A DNA stretch of 32,409 nucleotides from positions 1 to 32,409 of the forward strand of contig JAUIFD010000020.1 in NCBI GenBank assembly GCA_030429485.1, in the 5' to 3' direction. The first letter of the stretch is position 1. Each line of letters begins with the position of its first letter. Positions 5,348-31,351 of the stretch are shown in pieces. The notes below the pieces were generated by a model. It did no database searches. It had not been told where the DNA came from and saw nothing but the letters and a program-made list of their open reading frames with translations. The translations under genes and the position numbers were made by a program. The stretch is from Phycisphaerae bacterium. GTDB taxonomy: Bacteria; Planctomycetota; Phycisphaerae; Phycisphaerales; UBA1924.

Positions 5348-6348
5348 TGCGATTCGGCGCGCTCGCGTGCGTGCTCATCCTGCTGACCGTCGGCGGCATC
5401 GCCGCGTCGCTCGCGCTCGGCTCGGTCCGCATCGCCCTGCCCGATGTGCTCCACGCCCTCACCGACGCCGAGCCGCAGACCCCCGAAGCCAAGGCCCGCC
5501 GGACGATCGTCTATGACCTCCGCCTCCCCCGCGCGCTGCTCGCGGCGACGGTCGGCGGGGCGCTCGCCGTGTCGGGCACGCTCCTTCAGGGCGTCATGCG
5601 CAACCCGCTCGCGGCGCCCAACATCGTCGGGCTCACCGCCGGCGCGGGGCTCGCCGCGACGATCGTCCTCGCCTTGCGCCACGACGCGATCAACGCACTC
5701 CCGCCGTGCGCCTTTGTGGGCGCGATCGGCGCAGGGCTCGTGGTCTACGCGCTCTCCATCCACCCGACGCAGGGCGCCTCGCCCGTGCGCATGGTGCTCG
5801 CGGGTGTGGCCGTCACCGCGGTGCTCACCGCCATCACGACGCTCCTCATGGTGCTCAACCCGACGAGCGTGCAGTCCGTGGTGCTCTGGATGTCTGGCAC
5901 GCTCAACGGGCTCATGTGGCGCGAGCTCTGGGCGACGCTCCCGTACATCGTCGTCGCGACGGTCGCTGCGCTCGCGCTCGCACGCCCGCTCGATCTCCTC
6001 CAACTGGGCGACGATCACGCCCGATCGCTCGGCGTGCGCGTCGAGCCCGTCCGTTTCGGCACGGTCGCCCTCGCGGCCGTCTTGTGCGGGGCGGCGGTCT
6101 CGGTCGCGGGGATGATCGGGTTTGTCGGCCTCGTCGTGCCGCACTTGCTCCGGTTCATCGTCGGGCCCAAGCACCTCACGCTCATCATCGCGTCAGCGCT
6201 CGGGGGCGCAGCCCTGCTCGTGCTCGCCGACCTCGCCGCGCGCACGATTCGGGGCGATCAGGGCGAGCTCCCGGCCGGCATCCTCACCGCCCTGCTCGGT
6301 GGGCCCTACTTCATCTTCCTCCTCCATCGCGCGAGGCTCATCCGATGA
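5347..6348 (+). CDS. ABC transporter permease, FecCD/BtuC family
   Basis: This is the inner-membrane channel of the importer, with 333 residues, the usual family length, and predicted to have about ten membrane helices. The family signature GTLLQGVMRNPLAAPNIVG follows the second helix. The cytoplasmic coupling region reads LGDDHARSLGVRVEP, and the late block GMIGFVGLVVPHLLR is also diagnostic. The frame is open further upstream, but the ATG at 5347 gives the right length and overlaps the binding-protein stop by one base. The stop overlaps the ATPase start by four bases (ATGA). Substrate class is iron chelate, haem or cobalamin by family. Confidence 0.93.
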   Translation: MRFGALACVLILLTVGGIAASLALGSVRIALPDVLHALTDAEPQTPEAKARRTIVYDLRLPRALLAATVGGALAVSGTLLQGVMRNPLAAPNIVGLTAGAGLAATIVLALRHDAINALPPCAFVGAIGAGLVVYALSIHPTQGASPVRMVLAGVAVTAVLTAITTLLMVLNPTSVQSVVLWMSGTLNGLMWRELWATLPYIVVATVAALALARPLDLLQLGDDHARSLGVRVEPVRFGTVALAAVLCGAAVSVAGMIGFVGLVVPHLLRFIVGPKHLTLIIASALGGAALLVLADLAARTIRGDQGELPAGILTALLGGPYFIFLLHRARLIR

Positions 6349-7100
6349 CCGCCCGCCTCACCGCGACCGACCTGCGCGTCACCCTCGGCCCAAACGAGGT
6401 CCTCAAGGGCGTCTCCATCGAGCTCCACGCGGGCGAGGTCCACGCCCTCATCGGGCCGAACGGCTCGGGCAAATCCACGCTCATGCGGTGCCTCGCGGGC
6501 ATCCTCCGCCCCAAGGGCGCGGTGCAACTCGACGGGCGCGCGATCGCGCACCTCGCCCCACGCGAGCGAGCGCGCGTGCTCGCCTTCATGCCCCAACGCC
6601 CCGACGCCCCGCCCGGGCTGTGCGTGCGCGAGTTGGTCGAGCTCGGGCGCTTCCCTCACCGCGGGCGGTGCCCCGCAGCGCACCACGACACGACCGTGTG
6701 CGCATGCATGGAGCGCTGCGGCGTCGAGACCCTCTGCGAGCGGTCCACCGCGACACTCTCCGGCGGCGAGCTCCAGCGCGCCTTCCTTGCGATGGCGCTC
6801 GCGCAAGACCCGAGCGTGCTGCTGCTCGATGAGCCGGTCAGTGCGCTCGACGTGGGTCATCAGCTCGACGCCCTCGCCCTGCTCCGCGAGCTCACGCACG
6901 AGCGCGACCTTGCTGCGGCGGTCGTGTTGCACGACCTCAACCTCACCTCCCGTTTCGCGGATCGCGTCACGCTCCTGCACGCCGGCGAAGTGCTCGCGAC
7001 GGGTGCGCCGAGCGACGTGCTCACGAGCGCACACGTCGAACGCGCCTTCGGCGTGCGCGTGCTCCCGCCCGATGAGCGCACGCTCCGCTTCCAGAAGTGA
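6345..7100 (+). CDS. ABC transporter ATP-binding protein (FecE/BtuD type)
   Basis: This is the nucleotide-binding subunit that powers the importer. In its 251 residues the motifs run in order: Walker A GPNGSGKST (37-45), Q-loop Gln84, signature LSGGELQR (138-145), Walker B VLLLDEP (158-164) and H-loop His196 in VLHDLN. The start was placed at the ATGA overlap with the permease stop. A Cys/His cluster between the Q-loop and the signature (RGRCPAAHHDTTVCACMERC) is richer in cysteine than usual for the family. The operon ends here, and the next gene converges on it from the opposite strand after 15 bases. No outer-membrane receptor or TonB gene is nearby. Confidence 0.93.
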   Translation: MTARLTATDLRVTLGPNEVLKGVSIELHAGEVHALIGPNGSGKSTLMRCLAGILRPKGAVQLDGRAIAHLAPRERARVLAFMPQRPDAPPGLCVRELVELGRFPHRGRCPAAHHDTTVCACMERCGVETLCERSTATLSGGELQRAFLAMALAQDPSVLLLDEPVSALDVGHQLDALALLRELTHERDLAAAVVLHDLNLTSRFADRVTLLHAGEVLATGAPSDVLTSAHVERAFGVRVLPPDERTLRFQK

Positions 7101-7115
7101 AGCGGGCGTCGAGAG

Positions 7116-7901
7116 TCAGAAGTCCACCAGCCGCTCGGCCCACGCCCCGCGGTCGCGCACCCCGACTTCGCCCCTCCGGAGTACATAGACCGGCGCGTGC
7201 GCGGGACAGTTGATCCGGAAGTGGACCGCAGCGGTCCCGATCCCCCGCGTGGTGCATACGAGCGACCCCCCAAACCGCACGATCCCCCACGCGAGTTCGG
7301 CCGGCAGATCACAAGACGTATGCGGCGCGAGGCTCGGCCCGAACCGCCACTGCCCGCCGTGCGTGTGTGCCGCGAGCACGATCGGCGCGCCGAGCTGCGC
7401 CATCGCGAGCGCCCCGGTGGGGTGATGCACAAGCCCCAGGACAAACGCCCCCTTGCTGCCACCTTCCGCCAGGGCCCGGGCCGCGGAGAGCGCATCCTCC
7501 GGGTAGCTCGCACCAAACACCCGCATTCCACCGATGTGCTCGACGCCGGCTTCGATCCACTGCACGCCGCCGATCCGCTCTCGCATCAGGTCGCGCGTGC
7601 GCCCGTCGTCGTGGTTGCCGAAGACCCCGACGCAACCAAGCCTCGCCCGGCAGGCGGCCACCACCTCGGCGACGACCTCGGTCGCGGCTTCTCCATCGCC
7701 CGCGTTCTCCGCGTAATCACCCCCAAGGCACACCAGATCGACCTCGACCTCCGCGACCGACCGGAGGAGCTGCCGGACCACCCTGGAATTCGGGCGCCGC
7801 GCGCGAACGTGGAGGTCCGCCAGGTGCAGCACGGAGAGCCCGTCGAGCGCTTCCGGAACCGCCGGATGGCGGACCTCGAACCGTTCCAGAGGGGCGGGCA
7901 A
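7116..7901 (-). CDS. Metallophosphoesterase (YkuE-like, calcineurin-type)
   Basis: This is a two-metal phosphoesterase of unknown substrate; some relatives act on UDP-diacylglucosamine or other lipids. Motifs in order are DLH (residues 29-31), GGDY, GNHDD, VHHP and AHTHGGQ, the last a GHTHGGQ variant with Ala in place of the first Gly. I chose the TTG at 7901 as start because AGGAGG lies at a spacing of 8 bases and the domain begins a few residues later. The frame stays open to an ATG at 8036 and a TTG at 8042. Those longer forms add a low-complexity Ser/Gly/Pro/Ala tail, have no ribosome-binding site, and overlap the start of the divergent HTH gene. There is no signal peptide in the short form. 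Confidence 0.87.
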   Translation of the reverse strand: MPAPLERFEVRHPAVPEALDGLSVLHLADLHVRARRPNSRVVRQLLRSVAEVEVDLVCLGGDYAENAGDGEAATEVVAEVVAACRARLGCVGVFGNHDDGRTRDLMRERIGGVQWIEAGVEHIGGMRVFGASYPEDALSAARALAEGGSKGAFVLGLVHHPTGALAMAQLGAPIVLAAHTHGGQWRFGPSLAPHTSCDLPAELAWGIVRFGGSLVCTTRGIGTAAVHFRINCPAHAPVYVLRRGEVGVRDRGAWAERLVDF

Positions 7902-7909
7902 GGTCTCGA

Positions 7910-7915
7910 CCTCCT
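7910..7915 (-). promoter_or_regulatory. Strong ribosome-binding site deciding the metallophosphoesterase start
   Basis: The minus strand reads AGGAGG, eight bases ahead of the TTG at 7901. It is the only good Shine-Dalgarno sequence upstream of the conserved domain, and it argues against the longer reading that begins at 8036 or 8042. Confidence 0.5.
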
Positions 7916-8034
7916 GCGCACCGGCCCTGCTTCGGCTAGCATGGGCTAGCTCGGGCCCTGAGGCCCGCGGCGCGTCGCGAGAAGCACCCGAAACAGGCCC
8001 AGAGCCGGGCCCTGAAGTTGGCGAGGTATCCGTC

Positions 8035-8892
8035 ATGGCCAAGATGTTCTACACGCTCGAAGAGGCCGCCGAGGTGCTCGGCAAGTCGACCGACGACGTC
8101 AAGGCCATGGCCGACCGCGATGAGGTCAACCTGTTCAAGGACGGCGACCGCCTGATGTTCAAGAAAGAGCAGATCGATCTGCTCGCGGGTGGCGACACGG
8201 ATTCGGGCATCGGGCTCGCGGGTGACTCCATGTCTCTCGCTGACGATCTTGAGCCGCTTTCCCTCACGTCCTCCGGCTCGGGCAGCGCCATCGGGCTCGC
8301 CGGGCAGAGCGGCTCCCCCGCTGGCGACGCCAAGGAACAGACCGGAATCTCGATCTTCGACGCCGAGGAGACCGAGAACGCGGACCCCGCCGCCCAGACG
8401 CAGGTCTCCGAGCTGGGCGAGATCGGGGCCGACTTCGCCTCGGGTGATGCAGCGAGTTCGGGCTCAGGCCTGCTCGATCTGACCCGTGAGGCCGACGACA
8501 CCTCCCTCGGCGCCGACTTGCTCGGCGACGACGTCTACGGGCAGGACACGATGAGCGCGACTGCGGCCGACACCGGCGCGTTCTCCGACGACGCGGGTGG
8601 GGCGCTCTTTGAATCCACCGAGCCGGTCGAGACGGCCGCCCCGGCCGCCATCTCGTCCGCTCCCATGGCGGCTGAGGCGTACGACGGCGCGGGTTCCGGG
8701 CTCGTTGGCGGCCTCACCCTCGCGATCGCGATCACGACGCTTCTCGCCATGACCACGCTCCTGCTGTCGATGACCGGCTCGGGCGCGATGGTGCAGCCGC
8801 TCGGCGCCAACTGGGTGGCCGTTGCGGGCGGGCTTGCTGTCGCGACGCTCCTCTTCGCCGGGCTCGGTTGGTTTTTGGGACGCAGGTCCTGA
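8035..8892 (+). CDS. HTH-like (MerR/excisionase fold) domain protein with acidic linker and two C-terminal membrane helices
   Basis: The 285-residue protein begins with a region resembling the winged-helix fold of MerR and excisionase proteins: FYTLEEAAEVLGKSTDDV, then a wing-like FKDGDRLMFKKEQIDLL, about residues 5-50. A long acidic Ser/Gly/Asp-rich linker follows. It contains two copies of a short motif, GIGLAGDS (58-65) and AIGLAGQS (85-92). Two hydrophobic stretches near 223-248 and 260-282 would form a membrane hairpin. It could tether a DNA- or protein-binding head to the inner membrane. The function is unknown, and DNA binding is an inference from the fold resemblance only. GAGG ten bases before the ATG supports the start. 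Confidence 0.78.
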   Translation: MAKMFYTLEEAAEVLGKSTDDVKAMADRDEVNLFKDGDRLMFKKEQIDLLAGGDTDSGIGLAGDSMSLADDLEPLSLTSSGSGSAIGLAGQSGSPAGDAKEQTGISIFDAEETENADPAAQTQVSELGEIGADFASGDAASSGSGLLDLTREADDTSLGADLLGDDVYGQDTMSATAADTGAFSDDAGGALFESTEPVETAAPAAISSAPMAAEAYDGAGSGLVGGLTLAIAITTLLAMTTLLLSMTGSGAMVQPLGANWVAVAGGLAVATLLFAGLGWFLGRRS

Positions 8893-19763: not shown

Positions 19764-20165
19764 TCAGCTCACCACCGACCCCGGCGCGATCGCGCTCATC
19801 GGCGTCATGATGACCACGTTGCGCTCGTCGCCGCCCTTGGGGGCGTCGCTCGCGGCGAGGAGCATCCCGTTGGATTCGACGCCGCGGATCTTGCGTGGTT
19901 CGAGGTTGGCGACGACGACAATCTGCCGCCCGATGAGCGACTCGGGCTCGTAGAACTCGCGCACGCCGGCGCAGATCTGGCGGCCTTCGGGGGTACCGTC
20001 GTCGAGCTTGAGGACGATCAGGCGGTCGGCGTTGGGGTGCGGCTCGGCGTGCTTGATCGTCGCGACGCGCAGGTCCACGCGCGCGAAGTCATCGAACGTG
20101 ATCTTCGCCTTGCCCTCGGGCTCGGTCTTCGCGTCGGGCGTGGTCGTCTCGGGCGTGTCGCTCAT
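19764..20165 (-). CDS. Stand-alone tRNA-binding domain protein (MetG C-terminal / CsaA-like OB fold)
   Basis: This 133-residue protein has a disordered acidic N-terminus (MSDTPETTTPDAKTEPEG). An OB-fold domain of the EMAP-II/MetG-C type follows: ITFDDFARVDLRVATI, then HPNADRLIVLKLD, ICAGVREFY, GRQIVVVANLEPRKIRGVES and NGMLLAA. In many bacteria this domain is the C-terminal part of methionyl-tRNA synthetase, where it dimerises and binds tRNA; as a separate gene it can serve as a trans-acting beta subunit. A CsaA-like chaperone role is the alternative. A TAGAGT box ends five bases before the ATG at 20165. An in-frame GTG at 20186 would overlap that box and is disfavoured. metG itself is not in the window. 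Confidence 0.85.
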   Translation of the reverse strand: MSDTPETTTPDAKTEPEGKAKITFDDFARVDLRVATIKHAEPHPNADRLIVLKLDDGTPEGRQICAGVREFYEPESLIGRQIVVVANLEPRKIRGVESNGMLLAASDAPKGGDERNVVIMTPMSAIAPGSVVS

Positions 20166-20170
20166 GCGCG

Positions 20171-20176
20171 ACTCTA
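20171..20176 (-). promoter_or_regulatory. -10-like box abutting the MetG-C-type gene start
   Basis: The minus strand reads TAGAGT, ending five bases before the ATG at 20165, without a ribosome-binding site in between. It fits the leaderless pattern seen at five other genes. Confidence 0.4.
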
Positions 20177-20224
20177 GGTCGCGCACTTGGAGCGGCGTCG
20201 CACTCGCCGCGGACGAACGCCTTG

Positions 20225-21166
20225 CTATCCCTCGTCCTGCACCCCGGGGGCTTCCTCGCCATCCGGCGTATCAGGGACGACCCAGGCTCCATCGCGCCAC
20301 AGCACCGCCCGCGGGTCAACCCGCATGAACGCAGCGAGCTCGTCCGGCTCGGGATCGCGCAGCGGGGCCCCACGATCCACCGCGAGTTGGCCCGCCCACG
20401 ATCGCACGTCCGCGTCGAGCAGTCTCGCCTCGAACCGCATGTGTGCCGCAAACTGCTCGGGCGTGAGCGCCGTGCCCGGGTCGCCCTGGCACGTTGGACA
20501 GCGCTCGACCACGACCGCGCCACCCGGCGCCCGCCGATCGACCACGCGCTCGCCGTGGCACTGCGGGCAGGGCCAACCGCGGGCCAGCGCCTCGACGTAC
20601 CTCGCCACGCTCGACGCCCCGCCGAGTCCGAGCGCGCCGGAGAAGCGGTTGAGCGCCTCGGGCACGCCCGGCTTGTCGACACCGCGTCGCGCGCGCACAC
20701 CATCGCCCGCACGCGCCGCGCCGATCGCCTCGGCCGCCTCAAGCCGCACCTCTGCGGGGATGGGCGGCCCCTCTCCTGGAAGGGCGCCTGTCTCGGGCTT
20801 GCGGTACCGCGGATCCACGCGCGTCGCCAGGGCGCGCAGCCACCGACGTTCGTCGTCGAGCGTCTCCAACGCCGCGAGCCCGAGGCACGCGCTCCCACCC
20901 ACGCGAGACTCCCACCCGGACGCCCGGTCGACCTCGAACGCCAGCGTGTAGAGCGCGCGGGCGAGGCGGACTTCAACCGCTGAGGTCGCTTCGTCCGCGA
21001 CCTCTTCCGCCAGTTCCAGGTAGGCGACCGCGTCCGTGCCATCGAGCCCGCTCAGTCGGCGTTCCAAGTGTGGCACGCGCGAGTCGATCCCTGCCTGCTG
21101 TGCGCGCGCTGACCCACTCGCGAGCAAGCCGATGGACATGATGATCAACCACGCGGGTTTGCTCAT
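20225..21166 (-). CDS. Secreted protein with two CxxC motifs, last gene of the ExbBD/VWA operon
   Basis: This 313-residue protein of unknown function begins with a signal peptide (MSKPAWLIIMSIGLLASGSA, cleavage near ARAQ-Q). The first two thirds are helical and Ala/Glu/Arg-rich. The C-terminal third holds CPQCHGE (C200, C203) and CPTCQGD (C223, C226), 19 residues apart. CxxCxG repeats like these occur in the zinc-binding region of DnaJ; here they could bind zinc or form redox pairs in the periplasm. The ATG overlaps the preceding stop by four bases (ATGA). As the last gene of an eight-gene unit, it probably works with the ExbB/ExbD machine, but nothing shows how. Confidence 0.75.
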   Translation of the reverse strand: MSKPAWLIIMSIGLLASGSARAQQAGIDSRVPHLERRLSGLDGTDAVAYLELAEEVADEATSAVEVRLARALYTLAFEVDRASGWESRVGGSACLGLAALETLDDERRWLRALATRVDPRYRKPETGALPGEGPPIPAEVRLEAAEAIGAARAGDGVRARRGVDKPGVPEALNRFSGALGLGGASSVARYVEALARGWPCPQCHGERVVDRRAPGGAVVVERCPTCQGDPGTALTPEQFAAHMRFEARLLDADVRSWAGQLAVDRGAPLRDPEPDELAAFMRVDPRAVLWRDGAWVVPDTPDGEEAPGVQDEG

Positions 21167-23985
21167 GAGGCGCCTCCGGAATCGAACCGCAACGCCCAGA
21201 GGCGCGCCGCGGCGAGTTCGGCTGCGAGCACTTGCTCGATGATGTCGCTCGTCTCGCGCCGCTCGCGGGCGAGGGTGTTCAGCACGCCATCGACCGCCGG
21301 CGCCCGCTCGGGACGCTCCGCGATGAGCGCGAGCGCCATGCACTCGACCGCTGTCACTTGCTCGGCGGCGAAGCGCTGGATGGGGCCGACCGCGAGCTCG
21401 CGCCGCGCAGCGCCACGTCGATCGATGCGCGCCAAGCGTGCGCTCAAGTCCGCATCGCCGCCACCGGCGGCCGCGAGGCTCCGCCACCTCGCGCGGGCCA
21501 GCGCCGCTGCGCGCCGCGGATCGGACGCATCGGCGGAGAGACGCTCGCCCGCCGCGTCCGCACGCTCCATGTACGCGTCGGCGATTTCCTTCGCCATCTC
21601 GTCCACGCCGCCGATCGCGTCGCCCGCCATGCGCTCGAGTATCGCCGCGACGAGCCGACGGCGGACCTTGAGGCGCCACTCGGGATCATCCGCAGCAAGG
21701 CGCGGCGTCAGCGTCATATCCGCTACAAGCTCGCTCGCGCCGGGCGTGCGCGGCATGGTCGGGGCGAGCTCCAGAAGCGCGTTCAGCACCGACACCGTCC
21801 CACCGCTTGCCTGCAAGGCGGTGATCGCGGCTGCGCGAACCGTGCCGGGCGAGCCACGAACCGCCTCGCGCGCGATCACCTCCGCGTCGATTGCATCGTC
21901 GATCGGCCCGGCGTTGCGCTCTCCGAGCAACTCCAACCTCGCCGCAGGATCACGCCCGGCTTGCAGATACCGAGTCGCCCACTGCCCACGTCCCGCGCCG
22001 ACCTCCGCTCCACGGAGCAACCACACGCCGGGTGTCGCGGCCCCGGAACCGGAAAGCTCGCCGAGCGATTCGGCCCTCGCGAGCGAGGTCTCCGCGCGCT
22101 CCAGTTCGCCTCGCCAGCGCCAGGCGGCTGACGCGTTGAGGTGCGCGAGCGCTGCCGCTCGCTGGGCCTGGCGGTCGCGCGTCGCCTCACCAACGATCGG
22201 GCTGCTCCATCGCTCCAACGCCTGCCGCCACGCGTCGGCGATCGCGTCATTGGTGTCCCTATCGGCGAGCCCCCACGCTGCGCTGTATCGCTCGGCGATC
22301 GCCCGTCTGTCGGTCTCACTCGACTCACGCCGAACGACCATCGACGGGTCGACCCCGCGCGCGGACGACGCGGTGACAAGGGGGAGCGTGAGCGCGTGCA
22401 GATCGTCCGTGGAGTAGCGCGGGTCGACCAGCGCTCGCGTCACCCAACGCCGCGCCGGCGAGTCCTCGCCCCACTCGCACCCGAGAACAAGACCGCGCAC
22501 AACCCCGCGCAGCGTCTCCGACGATGCGGGCTCCGGCCCCCAAACGAGGAGATGGTCGATCGCCGCCAGCCGCCCGCGCGTGGCGAGCCGATCGCTCGCA
22601 CCCGCGGCCGCATCCAGCGCCTCGCCCCACTTCTCCCACGCCGCCAGCACGCGCTTCGCCTCCTCGCGCGTCTCCGGGCTGTCGATCGGCGGAGTGAGTC
22701 GCGGGATCATCGCATCGAGCGCGAGCAGCACCCCCGAGTCGAACGCACCGAGGGGGCGCGTGGGCGCAGCATCGCCCAACGCGCTTGCGAGAGCCAGATC
22801 GACCTCCTGCGACATCGACACGAGCAGGTTGCGCTCGCCAACCAATCGCGAGAGCACGCCCACCGACCACGCGGCCGCCCACACATCGGTATCCGCGCTA
22901 CCCGCCAGATTCCGCGCGGGCGCCGCGATCGCACGCACCGCGGGCGGACCGGCGCCGGCCCGGCGCGCGGCCCGGAACAAATACTCGGTCACCGCCCCGT
23001 TTGCGGCGCGCCGACGATCAACGTCGAGATCGCCCCACGTCCGACCGAGGAGTTCGACGGCTGACGCGAACACCTCGCCGGCGGCGTCTGGATCATCGTC
23101 GAGCCGGGCCACGGCCGACGCCAGCTCCGCCAGGACATCGCGCTTGACCGCGACCTCCGGCGCCGGCTTGCGCTCCACGTGCTCTGTGGGCGCCGGGTCC
23201 TGCGACTGCACGATCGGCGCAGGCTTCGGATCGGGCGCCGTCTTCTGGCGAAGCCCCAGGGCGCCGGGCAACACGATCACCGCCGCCGCCACCGCGACCA
23301 CGAGGACGAGCGCCGCGAACGCGAGTGCAAGCCCGCTCACGTTCCCGCCACGGTCGGATGCAGCCGGCGCGTTGGCCGTCGGTGATCGCGGCTCGGTCCG
23401 CTGCCGCGTCGGTTCTGCGGCCGCGCCCGTCCGAACCGACGCGACGCGCCCCCTCCCCAGACTCGCCACCGCTCCGACGGCCGCCTCGGGCCCGAGCCCG
23501 TGCAGGCGTGCCAGCTGCGCGATCCGGTGCGCCATGTGCGGCTTCCATCCTCCTGCGTGCGCGAGAGTCAGCAGCACGTCGCGTCGGAAGGCCGCGGGAA
23601 TCACCGCGTCTTGTGCAGGGGCCCGGACGTCGGCCCGCGCCGGCGGCTGACTTGTTCGCACCGGCGGAGCCGGCGCGCCGGAGGGCGCCCGCGAGCTCGT
23701 TCGCTCTCGGTCATTCGTCTGCGATCCACCGCCCCAACGCTCACGAGCCCGCGCGGCCATCACAGGATCGAGCAGCTGCGCCGCCGACGCATGCAGCGCA
23801 AGCCGCACTTCATCAGCGTCGGGCGTGTCGGCGTGCGGGTGCGCGTCGATGACCGCGAGGCGCTCCGCGAGCGCCGCGGTCACGGCATCCGCGGACGCCG
23901 ATGCGGGCTCTACCCCGAGCAGCGCGAACGGCCCGCCCGACGCCGCGCCGACTCCCAGAAACTGCGCGATCGGCCCACCGCTCAT
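21163..23985 (-). CDS. Large single-pass membrane protein with degenerate J-like N-terminus
   Basis: This 940-residue protein is not in a family I can name. Residues about 18-85 (PFALLGVEPASASADAV, then ERLAVIDAHPHADTPDADEV and AAQLLDPVMAARARERW) follow the helix order of a J-domain. The catalytic HPD is absent; the position reads HPH. A Pro/Ala/Thr-rich linker and a second helical block (FRRDVLLTLAHAGGW ... ARLHGLGPEAAVGAV, 133-175) come next. One membrane helix lies at about 217-243. The rest, some 690 residues, would be periplasmic and is helical, Ala/Arg/Glu-rich, probably TPR- or HEAT-like. It begins at an ATGA overlap with the preceding stop. The J-likeness is an inference from pattern only. 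Confidence 0.75.
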   Translation of the reverse strand: MSGGPIAQFLGVGAASGGPFALLGVEPASASADAVTAALAERLAVIDAHPHADTPDADEVRLALHASAAQLLDPVMAARARERWGGGSQTNDRERTSSRAPSGAPAPPVRTSQPPARADVRAPAQDAVIPAAFRRDVLLTLAHAGGWKPHMAHRIAQLARLHGLGPEAAVGAVASLGRGRVASVRTGAAAEPTRQRTEPRSPTANAPAASDRGGNVSGLALAFAALVLVVAVAAAVIVLPGALGLRQKTAPDPKPAPIVQSQDPAPTEHVERKPAPEVAVKRDVLAELASAVARLDDDPDAAGEVFASAVELLGRTWGDLDVDRRRAANGAVTEYLFRAARRAGAGPPAVRAIAAPARNLAGSADTDVWAAAWSVGVLSRLVGERNLLVSMSQEVDLALASALGDAAPTRPLGAFDSGVLLALDAMIPRLTPPIDSPETREEAKRVLAAWEKWGEALDAAAGASDRLATRGRLAAIDHLLVWGPEPASSETLRGVVRGLVLGCEWGEDSPARRWVTRALVDPRYSTDDLHALTLPLVTASSARGVDPSMVVRRESSETDRRAIAERYSAAWGLADRDTNDAIADAWRQALERWSSPIVGEATRDRQAQRAAALAHLNASAAWRWRGELERAETSLARAESLGELSGSGAATPGVWLLRGAEVGAGRGQWATRYLQAGRDPAARLELLGERNAGPIDDAIDAEVIAREAVRGSPGTVRAAAITALQASGGTVSVLNALLELAPTMPRTPGASELVADMTLTPRLAADDPEWRLKVRRRLVAAILERMAGDAIGGVDEMAKEIADAYMERADAAGERLSADASDPRRAAALARARWRSLAAAGGGDADLSARLARIDRRGAARRELAVGPIQRFAAEQVTAVECMALALIAERPERAPAVDGVLNTLARERRETSDIIEQVLAAELAAARLWALRFDSGGAS

Positions 23986-26714
23986 CCGCCGCTCCCCGCG
24001 CCCAGGCGCACGCTCAACTCCTCCAGCTTCGTTCCCCACGGTTCGGCTTGAATCTCCGGGTAGAGCACGAGGAGTTGCTGGAGCGCCGCTCGTGCTCGCA
24101 CCGGGTCGTCGTCCGCGAGCAGCCGGATCGCGTTGTACCTCGCCTCCAACCACCCGTCCGTGCCGGGCGCGAGTGCCGAGCCGAGCGTCCTCCACGCCTC
24201 GATCGCCTCCGCGGGGTACCCGCACTCCTCGGCCATCGCTCCGAACCGGCGCAAGGTGTCCGCGTTGGCGGCGCCCAGCTCCACCGCCCGGCGATCGAGC
24301 CCTAGCGCGGTGTCCCGCATCACCTCGTCGTCGTTCGCCTCCCATACCGCCGCGGCGGCCGCCGCGGTGCGCGACAGAACCGAGCGCATCGTCGCATCGC
24401 TCTTGTGCTCGTCGAGCGGCTCGAACTGATCGAGCACCCTCAGCCCCGCGCGCACAAGCAGGTCTGCGGCGCTCACGTCCTCGGGGCTCTCAAGCCAGCG
24501 CTCGAGCGCCCGCCGATACAGCAAGCGATCGCCGGCCTCAACGAATCGCCCTCCGGTGGCGATCAGGTCGTCCATCGCGCGTTCGATGCGCGAGTCGTCG
24601 TTCCGGGCGATGGCGATCTGAAGCCACCGAAAGGCCAACTCGCCCTCGAGTTCGCTCGCGTTCTCACCCAGGATGTTGATCGAGTCGCGCACCACACTCA
24701 TCACCCGCTCGGCGCGCTCCGCGTCGGGCGCCGCGCTCGCGAGAATCGCGTCGAGCATCTGGCGTCCGAGCGTCACGAGTCGGCGAGCGGCCTCTCCCGA
24801 AACCTCGGGATCGCTCAGATCGCGCGCGGCCAGCACGTCGTGATCGAGCAGCTCCGAAGCGACCCGCACGAAACGGTCGCCCAGACTCTCGGTAGTCGCA
24901 CCGCGTGCAGCCGACGGCGCCCTGCGAAACACGCGGTAGAGCAGCGTCGCCGCGTGCCGACGCGCCGCCCAGTACACCTCTGAGCTCTTCGGCACCGAGA
25001 GCAGTATCTCGATCGCCTCATCGTCGGAGACCAGCCCGGCGGACGCACGCCGCAACAGCAGACGCGCAGCACGCTCGGTGCCCGGAAACTCCTCCAAATA
25101 CAGGGCCGTGAGGCGTTCGCGCCGCGGCTCCTCCGAGACCCTCCCGCCGTCGATCGCCCGGTCCAACGCGAGCAGGGCAAACCACAGCGCGTCGTCGCGT
25201 TCGCCCGGGTCGCGGGCGGTCGAGGCGCCCGACTCAAACGCGAGACTCGCCTCCATGAAGTCGCCCGCGTAGAACAAAGCGAGACCACGCACCTGCTGGG
25301 AACGCGACGCCTGCTCGGTGTACTTCCCCGCGTCGTCCGATTCGCTCGCTTCGTCAAACGCACCGGCCGCGGCCCGATACCGGTTTGCAACCTCCGCCTT
25401 CTGGGTCGGTTGCTCGGTGTCCTCTCCGGCTTCGGCGTGTGCCTGGCGGGCGCGCTCGTAGGCCTGCACCGCGCGCACGTAGCGCACGACGAAGCCCTCC
25501 TCCCCGATCGGGGCCGTGCCGTACCGAGAGACAAGGTCGAGCACGTGCCCGAGCTCCCCTCGCTCCACGAGGTCGCCAAGCCCGATCTGCGCGAGGGCCT
25601 CAAGCAGTCGATCACGCTCGGGAAGGTTGCGTGCCCCCGGGTCGGCGAGCCCCTCCAATGCCACGATCGCAAGCAGACGCGCTTCGAGCGGCTTGAGCGT
25701 CCGCTCACCGTCATCGCCGGCGGTCGGCGGGCGTTCGCGGTGGCGCTCGTTGACCATCGCTTCGAGGTCCGCCCAACGCCTCGCGCGCCCGAGCACGAGC
25801 AGGCGCCTCGCGAACACCTGCGGTTGGACGCGTTCGGCGACCTCGGCGTCCTCGCTCTCGAGTACGTCCATCCACCGCACCGCGTCGACATGCTCATCCG
25901 CGAGCGAGCAGGCCAGCGCGCACCCGATCACCGACCTGGCGACGTGGTCGTACCGCAGCAAACTCACAGGCGCTCGCTCCACCGAAGGGCGCCGCTCGCC
26001 CGGCGAGTTGACGAGCCAAGCGAAGTCCTGGAGCGCATCGTCCGTGTACCGGCGTGATCTGGTGAGGATGGCCATGTGCAGATTGGTCCAACCGGAGTAG
26101 TACCGCGCAAGCGAGCGCACGCGCCTCGCCTCGCCCAGCTCGTCGCGCACGAGCTGCTCATCGACGCTCGCGCGCGGTGATCGCTCCAGACGCTCCAGCT
26201 CGCCGATGCGTCGATCGACGCGCGCGACAACCTCCCGCAACACAGGGAGCACCTCGCGCAGCACGCCCGTCGCCTCCTCGATCTCCTCCGGAGTCGTCAG
26301 GCGTAGGAGTTCGTTCTCGCCCACCTGTTCGACGCGCAGGTACCTGGCGCGAGCGAGCGTCACACGCAGCTCGTTCGCCTCACTCTCCGGCACGTGGCTG
26401 AGCAGGTCGCGCGCCCAACGCTCCACACGCGAGCTCGCGTCCTCGGACTCCGACTCGTTGAGCTGCGCCGCGTAGAGCTTCGCGAGACGCTCGGCAATCT
26501 CCGGGCGCTCCTCGGGGGGTGCGCTCGCGAGACGGTCTCGCAAGTATGCGCCGAGGAGATCGTCGAGCCCAAGCGACTCGAGGTATCGCTCAAGCGGGTC
26601 AGCCGGCGGCGCGTCCGCTTCATCCTGCGCGGACGCCTCAAGGCACGCGAGGGCGCACACGACCGCCGCCAGACACGCAAACCAACGGGCGTGCTTACTC
26701 CGCCGCGGGGACAT
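23982..26714 (-). CDS. Large secreted TPR-like protein of the ExbBD/VWA operon
   Basis: This 910-residue exported protein begins with a basic N-terminus (MSPRRSKHARW), a hydrophobic core and a likely cleavage after LEASA near residue 29. The mature part is almost wholly helical, with the Ala/Leu/Arg/Glu spacing and paired-helix segments of tetratricopeptide repeats. Examples are ALFYAGDFMEASLAFESGA and EECGYPAEAIEAWRTLG, the latter near the C-terminus and matching the TPR pattern well. It is probably a periplasmic scaffold. The start overlaps the upstream ExbD-like gene by 20 bases, with AAGGTGAG as ribosome-binding site; the stop overlaps the next gene by four bases. No catalytic motif is visible. 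Confidence 0.78.
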   Translation of the reverse strand: MSPRRSKHARWFACLAAVVCALACLEASAQDEADAPPADPLERYLESLGLDDLLGAYLRDRLASAPPEERPEIAERLAKLYAAQLNESESEDASSRVERWARDLLSHVPESEANELRVTLARARYLRVEQVGENELLRLTTPEEIEEATGVLREVLPVLREVVARVDRRIGELERLERSPRASVDEQLVRDELGEARRVRSLARYYSGWTNLHMAILTRSRRYTDDALQDFAWLVNSPGERRPSVERAPVSLLRYDHVARSVIGCALACSLADEHVDAVRWMDVLESEDAEVAERVQPQVFARRLLVLGRARRWADLEAMVNERHRERPPTAGDDGERTLKPLEARLLAIVALEGLADPGARNLPERDRLLEALAQIGLGDLVERGELGHVLDLVSRYGTAPIGEEGFVVRYVRAVQAYERARQAHAEAGEDTEQPTQKAEVANRYRAAAGAFDEASESDDAGKYTEQASRSQQVRGLALFYAGDFMEASLAFESGASTARDPGERDDALWFALLALDRAIDGGRVSEEPRRERLTALYLEEFPGTERAARLLLRRASAGLVSDDEAIEILLSVPKSSEVYWAARRHAATLLYRVFRRAPSAARGATTESLGDRFVRVASELLDHDVLAARDLSDPEVSGEAARRLVTLGRQMLDAILASAAPDAERAERVMSVVRDSINILGENASELEGELAFRWLQIAIARNDDSRIERAMDDLIATGGRFVEAGDRLLYRRALERWLESPEDVSAADLLVRAGLRVLDQFEPLDEHKSDATMRSVLSRTAAAAAAVWEANDDEVMRDTALGLDRRAVELGAANADTLRRFGAMAEECGYPAEAIEAWRTLGSALAPGTDGWLEARYNAIRLLADDDPVRARAALQQLLVLYPEIQAEPWGTKLEELSVRLGAGSGG

Positions 26715-27120
26715 AGCTCACCTTTGTAAACCCGGCGTTCTTGCAGGCCTGCAACGCCGCGGCCGCCGAGTCGACCGTCGCGAGCGGGAGCACCCGCACA
26801 AACACGCCGCCCTCCTTCGGGAGCTGGCGGAGGATCGCCTCGAGGTCTTCGCGCGTCGAGACCTCGCGCGAGCCGATCGCGAACCGAGCTCGGGCCCGGC
26901 CGTCACCGACCGTCACGACCTGGGGCTGGAAGTCGGCCGCCCGCCCCGCGCCGGCTTCGGACTCAGCTTGCAACGCCGACGCCAGATCGCGCTCGGGCTC
27001 AAGCACCGACGCGGTCAGCATGAAGTAGATCAGGAGAAGGAACACCACGTCGATGGTCGCCGCCATCGGCAGCACCGCGGCGTCGCGCCACGACTGGGTT
27101 CGCACGGGCTCGAAGCGCAT
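26695..27120 (-). CDS. ExbD/TolR family protein, second copy
   Basis: This 141-residue protein has a short cytoplasmic N-terminus, one membrane helix (about 23-42) and a periplasmic domain. The proton-pathway aspartate is D24 in ATIDVVFLLL, the position of the essential Asp in ExbD and TolR. The usual TPxIDV is altered: the Thr-Pro step is replaced by Ala-Ala-Thr, an oddity compared with the first copy. The C-terminal VDSAAAALQACKNAGFTKVSYV matches the conserved end of the ExbD domain. It starts directly after the stop of the first ExbD gene with no spacer. Two different ExbD-type proteins would form a heterodimer inside an ExbB pentamer. Confidence 0.88.
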   Translation of the reverse strand: MRFEPVRTQSWRDAAVLPMAATIDVVFLLLIYFMLTASVLEPERDLASALQAESEAGAGRAADFQPQVVTVGDGRARARFAIGSREVSTREDLEAILRQLPKEGGVFVRVLPLATVDSAAAALQACKNAGFTKVSYVPAAE

Positions 27121-27552
27121 CTACCTCCCCTCCGGAGGCAGGGCTGTACCGAGCTTCCACCGGCGGACGCCGATCTGTGCGAGGCGTCCGGCGACCTCAT
27201 TGACCGTGGCTGCTGTGGAGGCGCCGTCCGCGCGCACGAGCACCTCGATCGCCTCGGGCCCGCCGGCGCGATCCGCCTCGACGACAACGAGCGCGACGAA
27301 CTGCTCGACGGAAAGACGCCTTCCGTCTGACCAGAGCGTGCCGTCAGCGGAGATATCGAGCACCATGTCGCCAGACGAGTTCGTTGAGCTGTCGTCACCG
27401 GCTTGCTCGGGGAGCTCCACCGGCGTGCGCACGGCCTGGGCGAACTGCGACGTAAACAGGAAGAAGATGATGAGGAGGAAGACCACGTCGATCATGGGGG
27501 TCAGATCAAACCCCAGCGCGTGCTTGCGCGATGGCGCGCGGAACTTCATCAT
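27121..27552 (-). CDS. ExbD/TolR family protein, first copy
   Basis: This 143-residue stator-type protein carries the classical motif DLTPMIDVVFLLIIFF, with the essential aspartate D22 at the start of the single membrane helix. The periplasmic domain runs from about residue 50. Its block IEVLVRADGASTAATVNEVAGRLAQIG has the ExbD fold signature. In the ExbB-ExbD complex this protein conducts ions and converts ion flow into movement of a TonB-like partner. The ATG overlaps the ExbB-like stop by four bases (ATGA). The second ExbD gene abuts its stop. Confidence 0.92.
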   Translation of the reverse strand: MMKFRAPSRKHALGFDLTPMIDVVFLLIIFFLFTSQFAQAVRTPVELPEQAGDDSSTNSSGDMVLDISADGTLWSDGRRLSVEQFVALVVVEADRAGGPEAIEVLVRADGASTAATVNEVAGRLAQIGVRRWKLGTALPPEGR

Positions 27553-28373
27553 CGAGGCGCCACCCCTGGCCTGAGCCCCGCGCCCGGCGCGCCGGGAGCC
27601 GAGGGCGTCTGTCGCTGCTGCGCCGCGACCGCTGCGTGAGAGGGGCGCTGCGGTGGCGAGCCCGCGGGCGCACGCCCGGGAGCTGCGCCCGGCGCGCCTT
27701 CCAGGCGCGAGGCGAGCTGATCGACCACCGTCGCCGCGTCGCCCGCGAGGCCCTCGATTCGGTTACGCAGCCAGGCGTCCACAGCGGTGCAGGGGATCGC
27801 AACGATCAGGCCCATGACGGTCGTGATGAGCGCCACGGAGATGTCGCCCGCGAGCTGATCCGGCCGCGCCACGCCCTCGCCGGCGCGCAGCGTGTCGAAG
27901 GCGCCGACCATGCCGATCGTGGTGCCGAGGAGCCCGAGCATCGGCGCAACAGTCGCGATCACGCGGATCGGGTCGGTCTGGCGGTGCAGGCGTGCGACCT
28001 CGTGCGCACCGGCCTCCTCCAGCACGGTGCGGAGTTCGAGGAAGCCGAACGGCGAGCGCGCGCAGCGCGTCAATCCCGCGCCCACCACACGGGTCAGGAA
28101 GCTCTGGTTGCCCTCCGCCTGGCAGTAGGCGACAGCGCCCTGCACGTCGTTGGCGCGGAGCAGCTCGTCGAGCCGGGTTGCCTGCTCTTCGGGGACCAGT
28201 TGTGTACGCCGGAGACGCACGAGCTGCGCGATGATCAGCACCACCGCCGTGAACGACAGCCCGATGATCACAAAGCCGACCGCGCGCCCCTCGGCGATGA
28301 AGTCGAGAAGCGTGCGCTGCGGCGGGGCCACAGGCGTCGCAAGCGTCCAAGCGAACACACTCGAAAGGTCCAT
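27549..28373 (-). CDS. MotA/TolQ/ExbB proton channel family protein
   Basis: This 274-residue inner-membrane channel protein has a first helix near residues 31-52, a cytoplasmic loop, and the paired helices of the family. The blocks are IATVAPMLGLLGTTIGMVGAF (139-159) and ISVALITTVMGLIVAIPC (178-195); the Thr residues within them line the ion path in ExbB and TolQ. An unusual C-terminal tail of about 60 residues is Ala/Pro/Gln-rich and low-complexity. It would assemble as a pentamer around the ExbD-type proteins encoded immediately downstream. The start lies four bases before the preceding gene's stop ends the intergenic gap, so coupling is likely. Being a flagellar MotA is ruled out by the ExbD neighbours and length. 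Confidence 0.93.
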   Translation of the reverse strand: MDLSSVFAWTLATPVAPPQRTLLDFIAEGRAVGFVIIGLSFTAVVLIIAQLVRLRRTQLVPEEQATRLDELLRANDVQGAVAYCQAEGNQSFLTRVVGAGLTRCARSPFGFLELRTVLEEAGAHEVARLHRQTDPIRVIATVAPMLGLLGTTIGMVGAFDTLRAGEGVARPDQLAGDISVALITTVMGLIVAIPCTAVDAWLRNRIEGLAGDAATVVDQLASRLEGAPGAAPGRAPAGSPPQRPSHAAVAAQQRQTPSAPGAPGAGLRPGVAPR

Positions 28374-28377
28374 CAGA

Positions 28378-29439
28378 TCAGTTCTCCAAGCCGGCGGATG
28401 GCGCTGTCCGTGCGGTCAGTTCGGCGCGCAGCACCCCCGCGCCTTCCGTGTCGCCCATCTGCTCCATGATGCCCGCCGCGTCGCGCAGCGCGAGGGCCGC
28501 GAGGGAGGGCGCGATCGCCTCAAACTGCGCAGGCACGCGGAGCAGGTGCAGCGCGCCCAGTTGCCGTCGCTCAGGCGTGGCGTCGCGCGCGAGCCCGCGC
28601 CCGATCGCCACGTGCGCCCAGGCTTGCACCCATCCCTCCTGCTCGCGCTCGATGACCTGCTCGAGCGCGACGATCGCCTGCGTGCGCGCGCCGCGATCAT
28701 CCGACTGGGCGGCGACCAAATCCCACACCAACGCTGCGCCGCGATCGGCGGACGGTCGGGGCGGAAGGTCCGCATCAAGCCCGGTCGCAAAGCACGCCGC
28801 GGCGTGGTAGAGGGCGGCGAGCTCGCCCGCGCGCCCCGTCCACTCCTGGGGCAGCGGCGCGGACGCGAACGCGCGCACGGCGTCGTCGTCGCCCCAGATC
28901 GGAGGGAGATCGGTGACCAACGCGTAGCGAGGATCCTCAACCGGCCCCCACTGCCCGCCGGCTCGACGCTGGTAGGGCTGCGGGCCGGGCGCGGGGGCGG
29001 CCGCGTGTTGCCAGGCGAGCCAGGCCTCAAGCGCGAGTGTGCGCGCCCCGCGGTCGAGCCGGCACCGGAGCAGACCCTCGGCGGCTCGCGCGGTGGTCGG
29101 CCCCTGGGCGCCCTCCCGCGCACGCAAGACGTCCTCGAAGAGGGGCTCGGCGGCGAGGGCGTCGCCCCGCTCGAGGCGCGCCCACGCGCGCCAGACCTCG
29201 TCGCCCGTGTCACGCCAATCGGAATCGCCCTGCTCGCCCTCGATGCGGAGCACACGATCCCACGCGACGATCACGGGCGCCGCGGTTTCGCCATCGACGA
29301 CGACACCTTCGGGCGTGAGTTCGACGACCGTGCCGGCGGGCGCGGGCTCGGCGCGCCGGAGCATGAGCGGTTGCGCCCACGCAGCCGGCGCGGCGGCAAG
29401 CGACAGTGCGATCGCGACCCCGGCGTTGCGACCGATCAA
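28378..29439 (-). CDS. Secreted helical-repeat protein of the ExbBD/VWA operon
   Basis: This 353-residue exported protein has a signal peptide MIGRNAGVAIALSLAAAPAA ending in AWAQ near residue 22. A short beta-rich segment follows (GTVVELTPEGVVVDGETA, then VIVAWDRVLRIEG), reminiscent of small beta-barrel modules. The remainder is helical and TPR-like (DEVWRAWARLERGDALAAEPLFEDVL, with an Ala/Gly pattern). No catalytic residues are evident. The start codon is TTG and overlaps the VWA gene's stop by four bases. The next gene, the ExbB-like channel, starts four bases after its stop. It is probably a periplasmic partner of the machine. Confidence 0.75.
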   Translation of the reverse strand: MIGRNAGVAIALSLAAAPAAWAQPLMLRRAEPAPAGTVVELTPEGVVVDGETAAPVIVAWDRVLRIEGEQGDSDWRDTGDEVWRAWARLERGDALAAEPLFEDVLRAREGAQGPTTARAAEGLLRCRLDRGARTLALEAWLAWQHAAAPAPGPQPYQRRAGGQWGPVEDPRYALVTDLPPIWGDDDAVRAFASAPLPQEWTGRAGELAALYHAAACFATGLDADLPPRPSADRGAALVWDLVAAQSDDRGARTQAIVALEQVIEREQEGWVQAWAHVAIGRGLARDATPERRQLGALHLLRVPAQFEAIAPSLAALALRDAAGIMEQMGDTEGAGVLRAELTARTAPSAGLEN

Positions 29440-30386
29440 GGCCCACCCCCACCACCGGGCGCGCGCACGTAGGTGTACGTGCCGCCGCTGTCCTGCGCGA
29501 TGCGCCGCATCACGGGCTCAGACGCAGTGCTGACGAGGGCGATGCAATGGACGGGCACGGTTGCGCTGGCGTTGAGCTGCGCGATGTTGTCCGCGATTGT
29601 CGGGTCGAACTCGCCGTCGGTGAGAAAGTAGATGGCGTCAGCGCGTGGGCGCAGCGCGAAGACGAGCTCAAAGGCCGGCATGGGGTTGGTGCCGCCCGAG
29701 GGGTTGATCTGCTGCACGGCGCTTCGCGCGCGGCGCTTCTCCGTCGGGTTGGCGCCGACCCAGCGGCTGCCGCCGCTGATCGGCGTGGCGGAGTCGGAGT
29801 AGAGCACGACGTAGAACTCGGCGGCGTCGTAGAGGTCGTTGAGCGATCGGGTGAGTTCGGTGCGGAGCGCTTCCATCTTGCCGCCGATGGCCATCGACCC
29901 GGAGATGTCGAGGACGTAGGCAAATCGGTTGCCGGTGGCTTCGACGCCGAAGAACGACGCGCCCTGGCCCTGCGCGCCTCCCGAGCCGAGCCCTTCGCCC
30001 ATGCCGATGTCGCCGGAGCCGAGGTCCTGGGCGAGTTCGGTCAGGTCGTCGAGCGAACCGGAGGCGTCGACTTCGGGGAGCGACTCCTCGATCTCGATCT
30101 CGGGGATCTCGTCGGTCTCGGGTGCTGCGGGCGTGTCGAAGACGACGGCGTCGGCCTGGAGTGCGGCGAGTTCGGCGTCGGTCGTGATGGCGAACTCGAC
30201 GACGGCTTCTTCGGTGCCGCGCGGTCCGGCCCCGCCGCCACCCACCCCGATGAGCGCCGCGAGGACCGCGGTGATGAGGTGAAAGGCGAGCGAGGCGACG
30301 ATGCCGACAACGGTGGCGCGACGCACCCAGCGCCAGACACGATCTGAGATGACGTGTTCGGGTCCTGCCCGGTCCGGCGCCGTCAT
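29436..30386 (-). CDS. Membrane-anchored von Willebrand factor A domain protein with TonB/TolA-like membrane helix
   Basis: This 316-residue protein is the first gene of the unit. A basic cytoplasmic segment (RVWRWVRRA) precedes a single membrane helix at about 24-48. Within it Ser32 and His36 form the S-x-x-x-H pattern that in TonB and TolA contacts ExbBD and TolQR. A Gly-rich and then acidic linker (ETDEIPEIEIEESLPEVD) leads to a VWA domain from about 140. Its metal site is intact: DISGS, GGTNP for the distal Thr, and LTDGEF for the Asp. The C-terminus is Gly-rich. VWA domains bind proteins through a divalent metal. An ExbB/ExbD-driven role is an inference from the motif and neighbours. GAGG precedes the ATG. 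Confidence 0.88.
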   Translation of the reverse strand: MTAPDRAGPEHVISDRVWRWVRRATVVGIVASLAFHLITAVLAALIGVGGGGAGPRGTEEAVVEFAITTDAELAALQADAVVFDTPAAPETDEIPEIEIEESLPEVDASGSLDDLTELAQDLGSGDIGMGEGLGSGGAQGQGASFFGVEATGNRFAYVLDISGSMAIGGKMEALRTELTRSLNDLYDAAEFYVVLYSDSATPISGGSRWVGANPTEKRRARSAVQQINPSGGTNPMPAFELVFALRPRADAIYFLTDGEFDPTIADNIAQLNASATVPVHCIALVSTASEPVMRRIAQDSGGTYTYVRAPGGGGGP

Positions 30387-30480: not shown

Positions 30481-30580
30481 CCCGTAGGGCGTGCGGGTGT
30501 TGCCGCTCTTGCACCATTCGTGCGGGTTTGGGTGGCAGTTGCCGCGGTGTCGCGAATGGGCGGGGACGGGCTGCGCGACG

Positions 30581-30586
30581 TATCGT
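30581..30586 (+). promoter_or_regulatory. -10-like box abutting the pyrH start
   Basis: TATCGT ends six bases before the GTG at 30593, the spacing expected for transcription starting on the first base of the start codon. This supports the GTG as start, although the frame is open upstream to 30491. Confidence 0.45.
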
Positions 30587-30592
30587 GCCCGC

Positions 30593-31351
30593 GTGACCAC
30601 CACCGACGTCGAGCCGAGCCCGTCCGCCACGCAGCGCCCCGGGTATCGGCGGGTGCTGCTCAAGCTCTCGGGCGAGTCGTTTGGCGGCGAGGGCAAGTTC
30701 GGGATCGACTCGACAGCGCTCGATCTGATCGGTCGCGAGGTCGCTTCGGCGGCGAGTGTGGGAGCGAAGGTGGCGGTGGTCGTGGGCGGGGGCAACATCA
30801 TCCGCGGCGCGGCTCTTGCTGCTGAGGGGCACATCGAGCAGGCGACGGCCGACTACATGGGGATGCTCGGCACGGTGATCAACGCGCTGGCGCTGCGGGA
30901 GAAGCTATTGACCCTTGGGGTCGATTCACGCGTGCTCTCGGCGCTCGAGGTGCGGAGCGTGGCCGAGCCCTTTATCCGCGGGCGGGCGCTGCGCCACATG
31001 GAGAAGGGGCGCGTGGTGATCCTCGCGGCGGGTGTGGGCAGCCCGTTCTTCACGACGGATACGTGCGCGGCGCTGCGGGCGAGGGAGCTCGAGTGCGACG
31101 TGCTGCTCAAGGCGACGAAGGTGGACGGCGTGTACACGGCTGACCCCGCGAAGGACCCGACCGCGACGCGCTATGAGCGGCTGACGTTTTCGGAGGCGCT
31201 GGAGAAGCAGCTGCGCATCATGGACATGACGGCGCTGGCGATGTGCCGCGAGCACCGGATCCCGGTGATCGTGTTCGACTTCAAGAAGGCGGGCGCGATC
31301 CGGCAGGTGGTGGACGGGGCCAGCGTGGGGACGCTGGTGACGGCGGATTGA
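30593..31351 (+). CDS. pyrH: UMP kinase
   Basis: It phosphorylates UMP to UDP with ATP, an essential step of pyrimidine nucleotide synthesis, as a hexamer in the cytoplasm. The 252-residue protein has the amino-acid kinase fold: LLKLSGESFGG (22-32), VVVGGGNIIRG for the phosphate loop, then ATADYMGMLGTVINALAL, GVGSPFFTTDTCAALRA for the UMP site, and KATKVDGVYTADP for the ATP site. About 16 extra residues precede the core. The start is a GTG. It is not next to tsf or frr, its usual partners. The exported VOC protein gene begins 29 bases after the stop. Confidence 0.96.
   Translation: MTTTDVEPSPSATQRPGYRRVLLKLSGESFGGEGKFGIDSTALDLIGREVASAASVGAKVAVVVGGGNIIRGAALAAEGHIEQATADYMGMLGTVINALALREKLLTLGVDSRVLSALEVRSVAEPFIRGRALRHMEKGRVVILAAGVGSPFFTTDTCAALRARELECDVLLKATKVDGVYTADPAKDPTATRYERLTFSEALEKQLRIMDMTALAMCREHRIPVIVFDFKKAGAIRQVVDGASVGTLVTAD

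Follow-up and report, generated by a model that had tools for sequence, protein, structure and literature searches.

What does an ExbB-ExbD-ExbD motor drive when no TonB or TolA is encoded in the same operon? This question is raised by eight ORFs at positions 20225-30386 on the minus strand of a 32,409-nucleotide stretch of contig JAUIFD010000020.1 from a Phycisphaerae bacterium (the window), all of which were confirmed to be present. In gene order, the junctions measure -4, +4, -4, 0, -20, -4, and -4 nucleotides, exactly the set of overlaps (4, 4, 20, 4, and 4 bases), zero-base abutment, and 4-base gap given in an earlier note on this DNA, and from this packing we infer that the eight genes share one transcript. 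Significant Pfam matches bore out the channel protein, the two ExbD/TolR proteins, and the VWA protein recognized in that note. The curated NCBIfam cut-offs were passed by 0/8 proteins, and neither an Rfam family nor a tRNA was found in the window.

Two genes outside the machine flank it: a divergent UMP kinase (pyrH)-like gene (30491..31351, plus strand; AA_kinase, E 3e-35) and, downstream, a gene for a tRNA-binding domain protein (19764..20186, minus strand; tRNA_bind, E 1e-29). Both positions are conserved, the former adjoining the locus divergently in 112 loci and the latter lying beside it in 61 loci.

The motor genes retain their functional residues

Gene 3 (27549..28373, minus strand) encodes a 274-aa ExbB/TolQ motor ring subunit (Pfam MotA_ExbB, 7e-25), followed by two ExbD/TolR genes on the same strand, gene 4 for the 143-aa ExbD1 (27121..27552; Pfam ExbD, 1e-18) and gene 5 for the 141-aa ExbD2 (26695..27120; Pfam ExbD, 3e-11). 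Among the aligned ExbB proteins (PF01618), the channel residues T151 and T185, Pro194 of TM3, and Ser40 of TM1 are each invariant (34/34); the Trp of TM1 is not conserved. ExbD1 (PF02472) keeps the membrane aspartate D22 in 33/33 proteins and both L47 and P48 of the Leu-Pro linker in 31/33. In ExbD2 (PF02472), the membrane aspartate D24 and E43 are retained in 31/31 proteins and the Leu-Pro linker motif is missing. The functional roles of the docking and channel residues of ExbB and of the ExbD aspartate follow PMC12905483. Since ExbD1 has the linker motif and ExbD2 does not, the two are not interchangeable copies, and they could possibly form a heterodimeric axle.

The VWA protein carries a TonB/TolA-type docking helix

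Gene 1 (29436..30386, minus strand) encodes a 316-aa protein with a TM helix ending near residue 47, a linker of ~100 residues, and a VWA domain (VWA_3, residues 157-305, E 1.7e-13). The helix contains a Ser32-x3-His36 motif of the TonB/TolA docking type (30279..30293, minus strand), and alignments place these residues with S16/H20 of E. coli TonB and S18/H22 of TolA, in which the SHLS motif contacts TM1 of ExbB/TolQ (PMC12905483). S-x3-H is conserved in 40/41 aligned gene 1 proteins, and the exception (L068) lacks a TM segment at the N-terminus as called. In the named set it is conserved in 77/78 proteins, Thr replacing Ser in the exception. By comparison, the motif occurs in 5/563 (0.9%) of the TM-like segments taken from the other ORFs of these loci. 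Neither the Leu nor the final Ser of SHLS is retained, with Ala at H+7 in 30/41 proteins, and a Ser at H+11 shows no conservation among the aligned proteins.

Shortly after the helix comes a motor-box-like strand, VVEFAIT (30183..30203, minus strand), found by alignment with TonB and TolA and judged by eye beside ISVTMV of TonB and IDAVMV of TolA; E64 is conserved in 27/41 proteins and A66 in 34/41. The VWA domain (29463..29930, minus strand) has a complete MIDAS (D160, S162, S164, T233, and D257), of which all five residues are invariant (41/41). Because the docking helix S32xxxH36 and the motor-box-like strand are both present, gene 1 would fill the role of TonB or TolA and is, as far as its sequence tells, their counterpart with a different end domain. 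The earlier note had made the lack of TonB and TolA the key oddity of the locus, a view that these two features do not support.

TonB, Tol, and other motors in the genomes

The same note held that neither TonB nor TolA is encoded here, and the operon indeed encodes no TonB_C protein; it also named a complete TonB encoded elsewhere as a possible partner of the motor. That partner was rejected for lack of any TonB_C match (PF03544) in the own genome, which is 90% complete. PF03544 also had no match in 12 of 14 relatives. A search for the TonB-receptor plug, covering 15 genomes in all, had no match in 12 of them and none in the own genome. TonB_C is present in 7 of the 10 genomes of families f5 and f6. 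Two f5 genomes, G040 and G056, encode it together with a VWA-ExbB-ExbD locus, so that the VWA system does more than stand in for Ton.

OmpA/Pal-type proteins are encoded elsewhere in every genome tested, the own genome included. The other ExbB-type genes of the own genome are a flagellar MotA gene in a flagellar motor cluster, an ExbB-type gene of ambiguous kind on C238, and the one in the ExbB-ExbD pair of L104. In this last locus (L104:4627-10132, contig C107), the ExbB and ExbD genes are joined by one for a 1051-aa TPR protein and one for a TolB-like protein that has a PD40 propeller and an N-terminal TM segment. Similar clusters are found in L107 and L117, and the L104 cluster may be a separate Tol-like system. 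Elsewhere in the window, periplasmic-binding and permease-like genes at 4394-8042 resemble, by their translations as read, a metal-siderophore or B12 ABC importer; they occur in a genome with no TonB or TonB-dependent receptor matches.

The partner genes encode exported proteins and a membrane protein

Gene 2 (G2; 28378..29439, minus strand) starts with TTG and encodes an exported 353-aa protein that is conserved in 36 loci, with no Pfam family common to its members. Gene 6 (23982..26714, minus strand) codes for an exported protein of 910 aa, predicted to be an all-alpha TPR-like solenoid (AF2, pLDDT 89). Its TPR character lies in the C-terminal part, its profile matches TPR structures, and the nearest folds of the predicted structure are TPR-type superhelices.

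Gene 7 (21163..23985, minus strand) encodes a 940-aa single-pass membrane protein (AF2, pLDDT 79). Its predicted structure begins with a helical head and another small helical unit; behind the TM helix (~217-238) come a disordered stretch and then ~660 residues of all-alpha domain. Pfam matched 0/24 members, and the fold search returned no match at E <= 0.001. The J-like head proposed for this protein in the earlier note was not upheld, as the Pfam J domain is found in 0/24 members, the HPD motif is unconserved, and only a helical hairpin is predicted there. The fold matches for genes 6 and 7 were rejected as uninformative, being only generic TPR or armadillo-like solenoids with TM-scores of ~0.2 or less by query length.

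Gene 8 (20225..21166, minus strand) encodes an exported 313-aa protein with two zinc-finger-like CxxC pairs, whose four cysteines are present in 30-31 of 32 proteins; its match to DnaJ_CXXCXGXG (0.0045) is below the cut-off. In loci L056-L058, L061, and L063 of family f4, gene 8 has a third CxxC motif and is nearer to a DnaJ-type zinc finger. Inspection of the gene 2, gene 6, and gene 8 products showed Sec-type signal peptides, which are retained in relatives; a lipoprotein reading of the three was discarded, as their N-termini contain no conserved lipobox Cys.

The eight-gene locus is conserved in the Phycisphaerales

Of the 61 genomes searched with the VWA protein, 60 contain a match, in-frame TGA flags being read as matches extending beyond the gene end. 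All eight genes occur in the same order in 28 of the 40 loci fetched from relatives (25 by single-sequence search, and L052, L062, and L064 by profiles). Four of the 40 lack the ExbB-ExbD-ExbD block only, and the remaining incomplete loci are cut by contig ends or more divergent. In the named collection, the VWA matches are almost all Phycisphaerales, Phycisphaerae, or Planctomycetota records. Of its Phycisphaerales loci of sufficient length, 50/60 have all eight genes, five of these with overlapping stop-to-stop frames listed in a different order, and 10/60 have the non-motor genes only; the fetched and named sets overlap in some genomes. The gene order, which the earlier note had proposed to check across relatives, is thus conserved in both sets. 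The identical order and the odd overlaps, such as that between ExbD2 and the TPR gene (-17/-20/-26), recur at ~25-50% protein identity in ~30 genera, which excludes a chance arrangement. The eight-gene envelope machine is deeply conserved in Phycisphaerales planctomycetes and near-universal within one family.

Full-length versions of the gene 6 protein occur everywhere in the window's family and also in families f2, f3, and f4 of the same order, and no full-length counterpart was found outside the order; gene 7 has the same reach. Family f5 has a shorter module, in which a single VWA gene or a pair of them is accompanied by ExbB, two or three ExbD genes, and genes for two exported proteins, of 345 aa and 905 aa. 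The larger of these proteins is a homologue of gene 6 (hhalign E 2e-10, 800 columns). Homology of gene 2 with the 345-347 aa protein in the same position of the f5 module was undetectable (hhalign E 0.12). One f5 locus (L069:7398-9690, genome G056) has a tandem pair of VWA transducer genes, followed by one ExbB and three ExbD genes.

The motor block was probably lost or relocated several times

On a gene 6 tree (FastTree), 16 of the 81 loci lack the motor block, a few of them being partial contigs, and parsimony counts six changes. As mapped on this tree, the block has therefore probably been lost or moved repeatedly as a unit, the other five genes staying together. In genome G012, ExbB, ExbD1, and ExbD2 are kept together at another chromosomal site (L109:6982-8678), and the relocated ExbB clusters inside the operon clade. 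No operon-type ExbB or ExbD2 was found anywhere in genomes G004, G015, and G019, which retain the other five genes and S-x3-H, and therefore the transducer there would either borrow another motor or need none. These three genomes have a second type of ExbB-ExbD-ExbD set that the tree places with the f5 VWA-linked motors, with a support of 93/87 and long branches flagged. The S-x3-H motif is retained in motorless loci in which the N-terminus is present.

An ExbB-ExbD-ExbD set with no adjacent VWA gene, grouped by the ExbB tree with the f5 VWA-linked motors, was observed in L106, L110, L112, L114, L118, and L120, in some cases near a tsaE-like gene.

Comparison with known systems

The earlier note could name no system that the set matches; such a class was described in 2025. 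Williams-Jones et al. 2025 (PMC12204202) proposed for PVC bacteria a class of vWA force transducers whose genes adjoin a TPR gene, tolQ, and two tolR genes. In that paper the class was predicted independently, with AF3 docking via a conserved His; many of its members, not all, carry the SHLS motif, and gliding is suggested as their function. Gene 1 shares with these transducers the TM helix with S-x3-H, the linker of ~100 residues, and the VWA end domain, and the locus shares the adjacent tolQ-like gene, two different tolR-like genes, and TPR gene, Planctomycetes being among the hosts reported for the class. The class is also described there as having a motor box after the TM helix, to which the VEFAIT strand of gene 1 was matched by eye. 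The SHLS Leu-Ser half found in many of the transducers of PMC12204202 is missing here. Unlike the arrangement given in that paper, the VWA gene leads the operon, the TPR gene lies downstream of the ExbDs, and genes 2, 7, and 8 are further fixed members that its text does not mention. Judged on the features tested, gene 1, the ExbB-ExbD-ExbD genes, and the TPR gene fit the vWA transducer class, the absent Leu-Ser half of SHLS being the one departure.

The motor residues, the docking Ser-His, and, as judged by eye, the post-helix strand resemble E. coli TonB-ExbB-ExbD, from which the locus differs by its two ExbDs, its VWA end, and the lack of TonB_C and of any TonB-dependent receptor match in the own genome. 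A ring/dimer motor, a TolA-like docking helix, and an exported TPR protein (CpoB in that system) recall Tol-Pal (TolQRA-TolB-Pal-CpoB). However, the TPR protein here has 910 aa, the operon has no TolA C-terminal domain, and tolA, tolB, and pal are not found among the eight genes. With Myxococcus AglRQS-Glt, the locus has in common one TolQ, two TolRs, and several exported TPR proteins, but it has no FHA-TonB_C protein (GltG) and no recognized barrel proteins, and its large subunits have no detected relation to that system.

In the literature searched, we did not find a description of the eight-gene layout, of genes 2, 7, and 8, of the family-wide conservation, or of the motor loss. What is new is the layout of eight genes, three of which encode partner proteins of no known family, together with its near-universality in one family and the fact that the motor block, as a unit, was probably lost or relocated more than once. 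The proposed VWA transducers thereby gain a full, strictly conserved gene set that includes three such subunits and makes the question of their client testable, in a lineage where the VWA system is near-universal and TonB mostly missing. The natural loss and relocation of the motor block is a test of motor interchangeability.

A proposed mechanism and its alternatives

The motor residues, docking motif, MIDAS, and operon conservation, which are read directly from the aligned genes, make it likely that an ion-driven motor of ExbB and two ExbDs drives a TonB/TolA-like transducer ending in a VWA domain. From these features, we infer the assembly, the heterodimer, the passage of force, the client, and the job as follows. 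Five ExbBs would surround an ExbD dimer, possibly an ExbD1-ExbD2 heterodimer, in a 5:2 motor driven by protons or another cation. The helix of gene 1 would dock on TM1 of ExbB through S32 and H36, and its motor-box strand would be taken up by the periplasmic domains of ExbD. Motor action would then move the VWA domain, which may grip its client via the metal site of the MIDAS; this client could be among the exported solenoids or lie in the outer membrane or wall. The periplasmic scaffold, or the client side, would consist of G2, the gene 6 solenoid, the Cys-rich gene 8 protein, and the large portion of gene 7 that lies in the periplasm; gene 7 may also link this scaffold to the cytoplasm. The machine probably serves the envelope constitutively, for instance by anchoring or remodeling the outer membrane or wall, and not in nutrient uptake. 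This explanation also draws on the lack of TonB_C and TonB-receptor plug matches in the own genome, on the motor that G012 keeps together at another site, and on the independent prediction of the class in PMC12204202. Against it stand the Leu and last Ser of SHLS that are not kept, the unconserved Trp in TM1 of ExbB, and the three genomes (G004, G015, and G019) in which no operon-type ExbB or ExbD2 was found. More tentatively, the VWA domain, pulled by a motor with an ExbD1-ExbD2 axle, might make and break metal-dependent contacts with the TPR/alpha-solenoid scaffold in an essential envelope task, the motor being exchangeable and either encoded elsewhere or borrowed.

As a special case of this explanation, the machine may functionally replace Tol-Pal by pulling an outer-membrane- or wall-bound client at constriction. 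This is a possible reading that we hold loosely: the operon has no tolB or pal, yet OmpA/Pal-type proteins are encoded elsewhere in every genome tested, and both the TonB/TolA-type docking helix and the broad conservation of the locus agree with it. There is, however, no direct link to Pal, the L104 cluster of the own genome, with its ExbB-ExbD pair, TPR gene, and TolB-like propeller gene, could serve instead, and Pfam alone cannot rule out TolA. A surface machine of the Agl-Glt type appears unlikely; in it, gliding or adhesion would come from TPR-rich proteins of the periplasm and a VWA domain in contact with the surface, all driven by one TolQ-like protein and two TolR-like ones. Its motor make-up of one TolQ and two TolRs and its several TPR or exported proteins are those of AglRQS-Glt (PMC3169522), and gliding is what PMC12204202 suggests for vWA transducers, but no GltG-like TonB_C protein was found in the own genome, which does encode a flagellar motor cluster, and no outer-membrane barrel family was recognized among the eight genes. 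The near-universal presence of the locus in the family also looks like housekeeping.

The persistence of the five non-motor genes without the motor block in 10/60 loci, with S-x3-H kept in motorless loci wherever the N-terminus is present, would agree with a VWA protein that is a static, BatA-like membrane scaffold, S-x3-H being a packing motif and ExbBD having no transducer here. We regard this as quite improbable, given the rarity of S-x3-H in other TM segments (5/563), the motor-box-like strand and conserved ExbB partner residues that accompany it, and the motor that G012 keeps at an unlinked site.
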